Below are positions 2,913 through 22,294 of a DNA stretch of 64,000 nt, in pieces (position 1 is the stretch's first letter; every line of letters begins with the position of its first letter). The notes under the pieces were generated by a model that had not been told where the DNA came from, did not search any database, and saw only the letters and a list, made by a program, of their open reading frames with translations. Source of the DNA: Sphaerochaetaceae bacterium (GTDB lineage Bacteria > Spirochaetota > Spirochaetia > Sphaerochaetales > Sphaerochaetaceae). The position numbers were made by a program, and so were the translations under genes. The stretch lies in NCBI GenBank assembly GCA_028532765.1, contig JAQQAR010000093.1, positions 62,001-126,000 on the forward strand, written 5' to 3'.

Positions 2913-3518
2913 TCAGGAATCCTTCCTGTCCAACCCCACCAGATAAATCTCAAATGAGTCATCCCTACAGGCCTTTGGCTTGTAGGGTTTTACTTTATTG
3001 AAGAGAGTTCTCATCAATTGCAGGAGTTCAACCTGTCCTCCACCCTGAAAGATCTTCACTACAAGATTTCCATGGGGCTTCAGATGGTCTTTTGCAAGAT
3101 AGATGACCTGTTCTGCGAGGTTCTCACTCCTGGCCGTATCGACACTTCTGTTTCCCATCGTCATAGGAGCTGCATCGCTGATGATTGCATTATACGGACC
3201 ATGTTGCACCAAGATTTCCCTGATATCCTTCGAGAACGCATCACCCACATACGCGGTGACCGTTGGAGGTACTGGATTCAGGTTCAAGGGATTCAAGTCA
3301 ACAGCTATGATGCTTCCTTTTCCCTTGATGAGGTTTCTGTGTGTATATAATGTCCACGATCCGGGAGCTGCTCCGACATCCAATACGGAGTCCCCACTCT
3401 TGACCAGGTTAAAGTGCTGTTGTAGCTCTTCCAGTTTATAGACGGAGCGAGCTGGATAGCCTTCCTTGTGTGCTCGTTTAGTATAGGAGTCTGCACGGTC
3501 TCTTCTGCTTGTTGCCAT
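2913..3518 (-). CDS. rlmE: 23S rRNA 2'-O-ribose U2552 methyltransferase RlmE (FtsJ/RrmJ)
   Basis: A 201-residue FtsJ-family methyltransferase. The catalytic tetrad K28-D115-K155-E190 is intact (YKLEEL, ISDAAP, VKIFQGG, SFEIYL). The SAM-binding motif is LDVGAAPGSW at 46-55. The length is typical of RlmE, which methylates U2552 of 23S rRNA during late 50S assembly. No Shine-Dalgarno is seen. A TATAGT box ends 6 nt before the ATG, so the mRNA may be leaderless. The gene lies directly downstream of the two sRNA genes on the same strand, so read-through from them is possible. Confidence 0.93.
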   Translation of the reverse strand: MATSRRDRADSYTKRAHKEGYPARSVYKLEELQQHFNLVKSGDSVLDVGAAPGSWTLYTHRNLIKGKGSIIAVDLNPLNLNPVPPTVTAYVGDAFSKDIREILVQHGPYNAIISDAAPMTMGNRSVDTARSENLAEQVIYLAKDHLKPHGNLVVKIFQGGGQVELLQLMRTLFNKVKPYKPKACRDDSFEIYLVGLDRKDS

Positions 3519-3556: not shown

Positions 3557-3660
3557 CATAAAGATGGTGCCAGCGGTATTGTGGGGTGGGGAGAGAGAAC
3601 CGCTGGCACCAAAGAAATCACACTTTAAGGAGGTTTGAAAAAAACTGTTGCTCTGTTCTG
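3557..3660 (-). ncRNA. Candidate sigma-54-dependent sRNA, copy 1
   Basis: Predicted transcript of about 104 nt. It begins about 12 nt after a -12 element (start near 3660) and ends at a perfect 11-bp stem (GGTGCCAGCGG at 3610-3600 with its complement at 3576-3566) followed by AUCUUU. The first ~35 nt (AGAACAGAGCAACAG, a U7 run, then CCUCCUU) are nearly identical to copy 2. The hairpin loop of 23 nt is C-rich (CUCUCCCCACCCC). The reverse complement of the 5' part resembles an SD plus start codon plus AAA codons. No conserved ORF exists on either strand. The 3' U-tract is weak, so the exact end is uncertain. Confidence 0.6.
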
Positions 3661-3670
3661 TCTATAGTAA

Positions 3671-3687
3671 TGCAACTAGTGTGCCAA
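3671..3687 (-). promoter_or_regulatory. Sigma-54 (-24/-12) promoter of sRNA copy 1
   Basis: The minus strand reads TTGGCACACTAGTTGCA. The GG and GC doublets have the required 10-bp spacing, and the match to TGGCAC-N5-TTGCA is very close. It lies at the same position relative to the sRNA 5' end as the promoter of copy 2. Confidence 0.75.
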
Positions 3688-3762
3688 TTATAAAAAACAT
3701 TACAAAAAGTAGTTAAATATCACTATTGGTAAATATACTTATAAGTGCAAGCGAGTGCAACG

Positions 3763-3781
3763 GTGTGAAAAATTGTTACAC
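3763..3781. promoter_or_regulatory. Putative enhancer (UAS) palindrome for sRNA copy 1
   Basis: GTGTGAAAAATTGTTACAC is 19 bp long, with half sites GTGTG and (C/T)ACAC. It is centred about 112 bp upstream of the predicted start. The same GTGTG-N9-YACAC architecture recurs upstream of copy 2. It differs from the Psp-type palindromes, so a different enhancer-binding protein is expected. Confidence 0.45.
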
Positions 3782-3809
3782 TATTTCAAAATTTCACAGA
3801 TGTTGGTCC

Positions 3810-3902
3810 AAAAAGTAGGGTGCCAAAAGAGGTTTGGGGAAAATCTCTTGGCACCCTGTCGGTATAAAAGGAGGAGTATGAAAAAAATGTTGCTCTGTTC
3901 TA
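3810..3902 (-). ncRNA. Candidate sigma-54-dependent sRNA, copy 2
   Basis: Predicted transcript of about 93 nt from a start near 3902 to a strong intrinsic terminator. The stem pairs GGGTGCCAAGAG (3855-3844) with 3831-3818 and is followed by UACUUUUU. The 5' region is near-identical to copy 1: AGAACAGAGCAACA, U7, then CAUACUCCUCCUUUU. The hairpin loop again carries UUUUCCCC. On the opposite strand the same DNA looks like AAAAGGAGGAGT-ATG-AAAAAAA. The reading frame after that ATG is not shared with copy 1, which carries a 1-nt difference, so I favour an RNA product over a peptide. Confidence 0.65.
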
Positions 3903-3910
3903 CTCATAAC

Positions 3911-3929
3911 AATGCAATAAGCGTGCCAA
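3911..3929 (-). promoter_or_regulatory. Sigma-54 (-24/-12) promoter of sRNA copy 2
   Basis: The minus strand reads TTGGCACGCTTATTGCATT, a perfect match to the TGGCACG-N4-TTGCA consensus with correct GG-N10-GC spacing. Confidence 0.85.
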
Positions 3930-3979
3930 GAGCAAAACCGGGAATAGAGCGTTCAAATGGGAGTAGTGGTGGGAAAAGA

Positions 3980-3998
3980 GTGTGCATTGCTTTCACAC
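3980..3998. promoter_or_regulatory. Putative enhancer (UAS) palindrome for sRNA copy 2
   Basis: GTGTGCATTGCTTTCACAC sits inside the longer perfect inverted repeat GAGTGTG-N9-CACACTC (3978-4000). It is centred about 87 bp upstream of the predicted sRNA start. It has the same spacing and half sites as the palindrome upstream of copy 1. Confidence 0.5.
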
Positions 3999-4027
3999 TC
4001 ACAAAAAGGTGTGCAAATTTTGCTCAA

Positions 4028-4054
4028 TTGACGTTGGCTCCTTCCCTATATACT
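4028..4054 (+). promoter_or_regulatory. Rhomboid gene promoter
   Basis: TTGACG, a 15-nt spacer, then TATACT. The -10 box ends 2 nt before one possible ATG (4057) and 8 nt before the other (4063). No SD is present, so the message has little or no leader. Confidence 0.45.
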
Positions 4055-4062
4055 GTATGTTT

Positions 4063-4701
4063 ATGAAAAAGAGTACTATTTTAAACCGGAGATTCCGGGA
4101 TACTACCTATAAAAATGTTACGCTCAAGTTGGTTATCATCAACGTCTTGGTGTATTTCCTCACATCGATGGTCTACCCAAGGCTTACCTACTATCTTGCA
4201 ATGATACCTTCCCTGGTGTTGGGTGGATATCTCTGGCAACCTTTTACCTACATGTTTGTGCATGGAGGGTTCAGTCATCTGCTATTCAACATGCTGAGCC
4301 TTTTCATCTTTGGTTCGATGGTTGAACGTAGGGTAGGAAGCAAGGAGTTTCTCCTGTTCTATCTCCTGACTGGTTTGTTTAGTGGCATTGTCAGTTTCTT
4401 CAGTTACTATCTTGCCGGAACAAATGTCATCCTTGTGGGTGCATCGGGAGCTATCTACGGGGTGCTCTTGATGTTCGCAGTCTTCTATCCTTACTCGGTA
4501 ATCTTCGTCTTTGGTCTCATTCCCATCAGAGCCCCGATTCTGGTCATCTTGTATGCTCTCATTGAGCTTTCCAGCCATGTATTTGGAGCTGGGGGAAATG
4601 TGGCACACCTTACCCATCTCAGTGGTTTGATATTCGGGTACCTGTACTGCAGGATCCGTATGAGGATCAATCCTCTGGAAGTATTCAGGCGAACGCTTTA
4701 G
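4063..4701 (+). CDS. Rhomboid family intramembrane serine protease
   Basis: A 212-residue membrane protein with six hydrophobic segments. The catalytic pair is visible: S128 in GASGA and H185 in AHLTHLSGLIFG. An oxyanion-type N76 lies in HLLFNMLSL. It cleaves transmembrane segments of membrane proteins; the substrate is unknown. A second in-frame ATG lies 6 nt upstream. A longer GTG start at 3982 would add a hydrophilic His/Cys-rich extension lying over the sRNA control region, and is rejected. The stop overlaps the convergent adenosine deaminase stop by 4 nt. Confidence 0.88.
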   Translation: MKKSTILNRRFRDTTYKNVTLKLVIINVLVYFLTSMVYPRLTYYLAMIPSLVLGGYLWQPFTYMFVHGGFSHLLFNMLSLFIFGSMVERRVGSKEFLLFYLLTGLFSGIVSFFSYYLAGTNVILVGASGAIYGVLLMFAVFYPYSVIFVFGLIPIRAPILVILYALIELSSHVFGAGGNVAHLTHLSGLIFGYLYCRIRMRINPLEVFRRTL

Positions 4702-22276: not shown

Positions 22277-22294
22277 TTGCACTATTCGTGCCAA
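22277..22294 (-). promoter_or_regulatory. Sigma-54 promoter of the pspA1 operon
   Basis: Minus strand: TTGGCACGAATAGTGCAA. The -24 TGGCACG is perfect, the -12 is GTGCA, and GG-N10-GC spacing is correct. The predicted start is near 22267, a leader of about 39 nt. Confidence 0.88.

Follow-up and report, generated by a model that had tools for sequence, protein, structure and literature searches.

What occupies the region between rlmE and a divergent rhomboid-family gene in this Sphaerochaetaceae genome (G000)? A preliminary description of the window, by which we mean the whole 64,000-nucleotide stretch of DNA analysed here, placed two head-to-tail cassettes on the minus strand upstream of rlmE and proposed that they are tandem sigma-54-dependent small RNA (sRNA) genes. 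Both cassettes are present at that place, and each of the tandem units combines a -24/-12 element with an unpaired 5' arm and a hairpin that is stable. We predict that the two units are very probably sigma-54-dependent sRNA genes. We also consider it probable that the account holds as a whole, with a sigma-54-driven pair of sRNAs blocking translation starts by means of an anti-Shine-Dalgarno (anti-SD) arm. The palindromes, the anti-SD element, the missing Hfq match and the family-wide spread are additions to the preliminary description.

Anatomy of the two units

The gene downstream of the units, rlmE (2913..3518, minus strand), encodes an FtsJ-like methyltransferase (Pfam PF01728) and lies outside the RNA; the closest named rlmE records are those of Sphaerochaeta sp. 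S2 (100% identity) and, next, S. halotolerans (94%). The divergent rhomboid-family gene (3982..4701, plus strand; Pfam PF01694), whose true start may be nearer 4063, completes the context. Copy 1, which we call type A, adjoins rlmE at 3557..3660 on the minus strand, with a predicted +1 at about 3660, reckoned from the -12 C at 3672, and a 3' end at about 3557. Our covariance model R1, which spans the RNA only and no promoter, matches it at 3557-3656 with 101 bits. Its -24/-12 element, TTGGCACACTAGTTGC (3687-3672, minus strand), agrees with TTGGCAC-N5-TTGC at 11 of 11 positions and has a conservation of 0.89 in the genus comparison, and its terminator-type hairpin with a C-rich loop lies at 3565..3611 (minus strand; inverted repeat, fold and covariation). 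Upstream is a palindrome, a putative enhancer site, at 3764..3780 (motif score 17.8; conservation 0.89). Copy 2, or type B, spans 3810..3902 on the minus strand, with a predicted +1 at about 3902 and an R1 match at 3810-3898 (75.9 bits). Its promoter, TTGGCACGCTTATTGC (3929-3914, minus strand; conservation 0.92), is likewise an 11 of 11 match, so that the exact TGGCAC-N5-TTGCA promoters of the preliminary description are found in both copies. The hairpin of copy 2, at 3817..3857 (minus strand; inverted repeat and fold), carries CCCC in its loop. Two palindromes lie upstream of this copy, a promoter-proximal one at 3981..3997 (score 16.8; conservation 0.89) and a distal one at 4010..4026 (score 20.3; conservation 0.88), which is also upstream of the rhomboid gene.

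Terminator hairpins with C-rich loops had been proposed for both units. The inverted repeats are near-perfect (13 nt, 100% complementary, with a 21-nt loop, and 14 nt, 93%, with a 13-nt loop), and folding of each RNA beats 200 of 200 shuffles (z -5.17 for copy 1 and -4.68 for copy 2); the U-tracts that follow, AUCUUUAUG and UACUUUUU, are modest. The roughly 35 nt of near-identical 5' sequence first ascribed to the copies proved generous. Gap-free identity covers about 22 nt, AGAACAGAGCAACA(G)UUUUUUUCA, beyond which CCUCC is offset by 2-3 nt. Similarity between the copies had also been said to begin at the predicted +1, but it extends through the promoter (49 nt, 80%). That boundary does appear across genera, where the conserved block starts near the predicted +1, mostly at -1 to +5 and at about +10 at most (two loci). 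Within the genus, identity against 13 loci is highest in the RNA 5' arms (0.98-0.99), followed by the hairpins (0.92-0.98), promoters (0.89-0.92) and palindromes (0.88-0.89), and drops to 0.49-0.71 in the intervening sequence.

An RNA family of Sphaerochaeta-like spirochaetes

Comparison across genomes shows that the hairpin covaries. Of 54 distinct rows, ten were removed by eye, seven of them spurious matches to the core and three (L010, L011 and L016) genuine but near-identical cassettes. The remaining 44 rows form alignment A1, and alignment A2 retains 41 of these, near-identical ones being omitted. In the 41 aligned cassettes, the stem has 11 pairs, and compensatory changes occur in 8 of them. 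Paired cells amount to 95.7% compared to 80.6% in shuffles, changes on both sides number 66 compared to 19, and pairing falls to 39-50% when the partner is slid by 1-3 columns.

These changes bear on two other readings of the locus. One is that the conserved element is a short peptide gene on the plus strand, with a Shine-Dalgarno (SD) sequence, ATG or TTG and AAAAAA. The reverse complement does give AAGGAGG-AUG-AAA-AAA, and an open reading frame at 3755-4066 exists, as does a frame from an inner ATG. Yet across 14 sequences the frame that begins at the aligned ATG has anywhere between 8 and 62 codons, and the U-run varies in length, while the stem covaries and promoter and hairpin on the minus strand are kept; we find a peptide gene scarcely credible. 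The comparison runs counter to the pattern that the preliminary description named as refuting, in which related genomes would lose promoter and hairpin but conserve a plus-strand frame. The other reading is a non-functional repeat or mobile element with a chance promoter, as the duplicated copies, up to four in tandem in G017, might suggest. We judge this to be just as improbable, given that the units sit mostly in one syntenic place, that genomes with an R1 match have only 1 to 4 copies, and that conservation is limited to functional-looking parts and accompanied by compensatory changes.

Model R1 matches 118 of 139 genomes of the family, in 17 of its 22 genera (E <=0.01), including 62 of the 75 better genomes. 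There was no R1 match in 21 of the 139, among them 13 of the 75 better ones, under strict filters that make these absences soft. A class-wide draw of 297 genomes gave matches in 38 (E <=0.001), of which 37 belong to the same family and one, G038, to another; in G038, a tandem pair of copies is flanked by a rhomboid gene and rlmE. Sixteen publicly named rlmE loci yielded 28 R1 matches, spread over 15 of the loci. A BLASTN search with a 381-nt query, one of the checks proposed at the outset, recovered the locus in 32 of 60 relatives; every one of the 25 genomes in the genus, with G000 counted, was among the positives. In the companion search, Rfam covariance models gave no match at the gathering score, consistent with the earlier view that the sequence is unrelated to Qrr or GlmY/GlmZ; the six Rfam matches at the locus up to E 5 include no bacterial sRNA. 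Among the matches listed from the open-licence literature, as far as their available text extends, no paper describes a Sphaerochaeta sRNA or a spirochaete sRNA transcribed by sigma-54. On this comparative evidence, the predicted RNA is an uncatalogued family kept across most of the sampled Sphaerochaeta-like spirochaetes.

The position of the units raises the further question of whether they form a sigma-54-driven leader or attenuator of rlmE and no independent RNA. Copy 1 stops about 40 nt short of the rlmE start, and rlmE is present in 26 of 43 RNA-bearing loci, one of them from another family. However, 17 of the 43 loci are without rlmE (4 of the 17 with the rhomboid gene alone, and some stretches being short), and L122, L117 and L119 carry about 0.9-5 kb of other sequence between a copy and rlmE. 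Moreover, the units number two to four, every one of them with a promoter, a palindrome and a hairpin of its own, and the stems resemble terminators. A leader is thus very unlikely in our view. The site next to rlmE looks ancestral, but the RNA is not confined to it.

Predicted sigma-54 promoters and the palindromes upstream of them

The 3.16 Mb of G000 contain six copies of the pattern TGGCAC-N5-TTGCA, two of them at the sRNA locus, compared to a single occurrence of a reversed control pattern. Another of the six sites lies upstream of a sigma-70-family gene. Of the remaining three, one apparently precedes an hsp20-like gene, one a possible gene for an outer-membrane protein, and one seems to fall inside a gene. 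Across relatives, a sigma-54 promoter, scored as at least 9 of 11 consensus bases no more than 36 nt upstream of the model match, precedes 49 of 50 matches outside the training set. With training sequences counted, the figure is 55 of 56 distinct matches in fetched loci, but six of these matches are training sequences, chosen earlier with a promoter-like filter, and 49 of 50 is the count without them. L077 was left out of this count, being the same place as L107. Only 16 of 1120 random 36-nt windows from the same loci scored as high, with true promoters possibly among them. The one match without a promoter within 36 nt upstream is among the three copies of L106. This third copy (L106:2165-2240) is weak, at 27 bits with a best promoter score of 5 of 11, and is perhaps decaying. 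The sigma-54 (RpoN) DNA-binding domain was found in 136 of 139 family genomes and in all 22 genera. The co-occurrence of promoter and RNA, the stem covariation, the presence of RpoN and the copy number support the proposal of tandem sigma-54-dependent sRNA genes. Comparison also establishes the anatomy and conservation of the units and ties both promoter and palindrome to the RNA, and transcription and sigma-54 dependence of both copies are strongly implied by the sequences.

A 17-bp palindrome, TGTGMAAAAATTTKCACA, is found in 86 of 97 upstream regions, with 113 of its 139 sites located 80-140 nt from +1. Letter-shuffled regions contain 0.8 on average and 3 at most (20 rounds). Because these same upstream regions, many of them from close relatives, served to derive the motif, the count overstates independence. 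A strict version, TGTGNAANNNTTNCACA, had one site in six genomes (both strands), upstream of the sRNAs of G005; this pattern is too strict and hence unsuitable for mapping a regulon. At a score of at least 14, the window and the own-genome pieces around six enhancer-binding-protein loci contain only the three sRNA sites. With palindromes confined to the sRNA sites in these pieces, no autoregulated activator was found there.

Which protein might bind the palindromes? The sigma-54 activator domain has seven strong matches and one weak match (in an 863-codon frame) in G000. Two of the proteins, C8 (453 aa) and C19, are of the NtrC type, with receiver, activator and Fis-type DNA-binding domains. 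Orthologs of C8 occur in nine sRNA-positive genomes (G029, G032, G146, G115, G081, G034, G129, G026 and G038) and also in two genomes with no model match, G031 and G033 (partial). Only the C19 type is found in G160 and G162, which have no model match, and, among the compared loci, in G112; the compared, partial loci of G026, G129 and G038 showed no C19 type. The comparison left out the loci of G144 and G145. This distribution weakly favours the C8 protein as a candidate activator of the sRNA promoters, and the palindrome offers an assayable handle on the enhancer-binding protein.

The family would supply a concrete non-coding output for sigma-54 in Sphaerochaeta-like spirochaetes. The RpoN-RpoS cascade of Borrelia is similar in that sigma-54 serves as a spirochaete switch, but its named direct output is rpoS, and no sigma-54-transcribed sRNA is named in the available text of the matches listed. 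Elsewhere in G000, the sigma-54 promoters before the sigma-70-family and hsp20-like genes (L124:5234, minus strand, and L142:1068, plus strand) share a different palindrome, GTGTCA-N3-TGACTC. These two sites are probably the regulon of another enhancer-binding protein and recall the Borrelia cascade from sigma-54 to RpoS. A 10 of 11 promoter at 22294 of the window (minus strand) is divergent from a short sigma-54 activator at about 22483 (plus strand), a 373-codon frame that is PspF-like by length only. Sigma-54-like promoters (10-11 of 11) also lie near other activator genes of the same genome, at L139:3500 (plus strand) and at L137:3513 (plus strand) and 1230 (minus strand).

The 5' arm, its candidate targets and known sRNAs

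The core of the 5' arm reads CAGAGCAACAG-U6/7-CA(U/A)ACCUCCUU. Over 57 matches, its most constant part is the U-run, CA and ACCUCCUU, preceded by CAGAGCAACAG. CCUCC lies inside the first 60 nt in 55 of the 57 matches, and a loose pattern finds a C-rich run past position 45 in 34. The anti-SD sequence is CCUCCUU, and the reverse complement of the arm resembles a gene start, AAGGAGGTATGAAAAAAACTGTTGCTCTG. In the interpretation that we favour, an enhancer-binding protein on TGTGMAAAAATTTKCACA-type palindromes, mostly 80-140 nt upstream, would activate sigma-54 RNA polymerase, and each copy, independently promoted, would give a transcript some 95-105 nt long, with a hairpin of the intrinsic-terminator type at its end. 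The unpaired 5' arm, joined in type A by the C-rich loop of the hairpin, would then serve as an anti-SD element, pairing with the translation-initiation regions of target mRNAs and barring ribosome entry. Such a block of translation at start sites is in our view the likeliest mechanism; the choice of target mRNAs, like that of the enhancer-binding protein, is weakly indicated. Pairing would proceed without canonical Hfq, and the best candidate targets would perhaps be secreted solute-binding proteins.

Pairing was predicted with 428 gene starts, taken by a simple script from 400 kb of G000 and the window. The type A arm paired better on average than 150 of 150 dinucleotide shuffles, a result that an anti-SD sequence would give any RNA. 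Among these starts, the one it paired with best belonged to G000:C87:1215 (GGAGGAAAGCAUGAAAAAAACUAUUGCUUUG), a gene for a solute-binding protein that matches Pfam PF13343 and other families of this kind. The pairing energy of -37.8 kcal/mol was reached by 2 of 150 shuffles, and the runner-up start had -32.5. Among 19 orthologs of this gene in the genus, pairing was strong in 7, intermediate in 2 and weak in 10. The first 21 nt of type A alone paired no better on average (100 of 200 shuffles as good) and again had the C87 gene as best partner (1 of 200 shuffles); for type B, the best partner was ordinary (46 of 200 shuffles). A search of G000 for AGGAGGNNNGAAAAAAACTGTTGC as one long antisense target, with at most 3 mismatches allowed, hit only the sRNA locus itself.

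A broader proposal is that this lineage-wide family, driven by sigma-54 and an enhancer and working without canonical Hfq, carries an arm antisense to the generic start of secreted-protein genes, which would comprise SD, AUG, AAAAAA and hydrophobic codons. If true, a single signal would turn down production of an entire class of exported transport proteins with no need of an RNA chaperone. The whole type A arm paired 1.1 kcal/mol better with signal-peptide starts, and 1 of 150 shuffles had as large a gap, but a direct rank test of this bias was not significant (p 0.12). The first 21 nt of type A had no such bias (133 of 200 shuffles as biased), compared to 14 of 200 for type B. A degenerate target pattern occurred at 86 places in six genomes (11 of them sRNA loci) compared to 53 for the reversed pattern, and at 14 compared to 13 in G000 alone, a modest excess. 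Of thirty pattern loci examined, 22 lay elsewhere than at the sRNAs, and seven of the 22 (L218, L224, L228, L230, L233, L239 and L241) resemble by eye the starts of genes for signal-peptide proteins. Signal-peptide starts naturally read AUGAAAAA, so these seven look-alikes weigh little. Because of the rank test and the order of the pattern controls, we regard the broader proposal as doubtful.

The sRNAs could also be real and sigma-54-dependent but bind a protein, as a sponge or decoy, instead of mRNAs. In favour of this, the 5' arm hardly changes across many genera while the leading candidate target does, the evidence for targets is mixed, and the U-run and C-rich loop could serve as protein sites. 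Nevertheless, the most constant block is the anti-SD sequence, and Hfq, the usual binder of U-runs, was not found in G000 with the Pfam model. We think protein binding unlikely and continue to favour pairing with mRNAs.

In the available text of PMC11607428, Hfq is reported absent from Borrelia, where a protein once so called is not Hfq, and Leptospira and Turneriella are said to possess it. Among 40 relatives, the Pfam Hfq model matched one, G004 (L211; G004:C20:2187-2375). The G004 assembly is 86% complete and in about 330 contigs, and its match is possibly contamination. Spirochaete RNA regulation is poorly known, and widely conserved, multi-copy, probably sigma-54-driven sRNAs from a lineage with almost no Hfq match offer a tractable case of how such RNAs may pair in its absence.

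Several sRNAs of other bacteria share parts of this arrangement. Qrr RNAs use Hfq. GlmY and GlmZ of enterobacteria are homologous RNAs with sigma-54-type promoters that bind RapZ, unlike which the RNAs here have no Rfam match and one short arm with one hairpin. The seed of GcvB is GU-rich, and GcvB has a dedicated regulator, GcvA; the likeness is the proposed block of solute-binding protein mRNAs close to the SD, and the difference again the lack of an Rfam match. As far as the available text of PMC10162802 describes them, the Qrr RNAs of Vibrionaceae have a sigma-54 promoter requiring an enhancer-binding protein, and they resemble the present pair in this promoter logic, in their multiple copies and in being short sRNAs with a terminator hairpin. 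The sequence here is nevertheless unrelated, has no Rfam match and comes from another phylum. According to the available text of PMC8844928, AbcR1 and AbcR2 of rhizobia are tandem homologous sRNAs of about 115-120 nt in one intergenic region, with one anti-SD motif in a loop and a second between stem-loops; they interact with Hfq, and their targets include periplasmic parts of ABC transporters. Tandem homologs and two anti-SD motifs are found here too, a resemblance in apparent working only, and solute-binding protein targets, which here are candidates only, are a further likeness. The differences from what that text describes are another sequence, a sigma-54 promoter with palindromes and no Pfam Hfq match in G000. 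No Rfam family matched, a result that is meaningful for kinship with AbcR1/AbcR2 (alpha-r15) only if the library includes that family. The pair would thus appear to work most like AbcR1/2 with the promoter logic of Qrr, and by Rfam it belongs to neither. The RNAs of G038, the genome from another family, differ at the 5' end and keep UUUUUUCAUACCUCCUCU; these tandem relatives (L141:2005-2500) have a diverged 5' end, CAATGCAGTCGATTTTTTTCATACCTCCTCT, and retain the U-run and anti-SD block.
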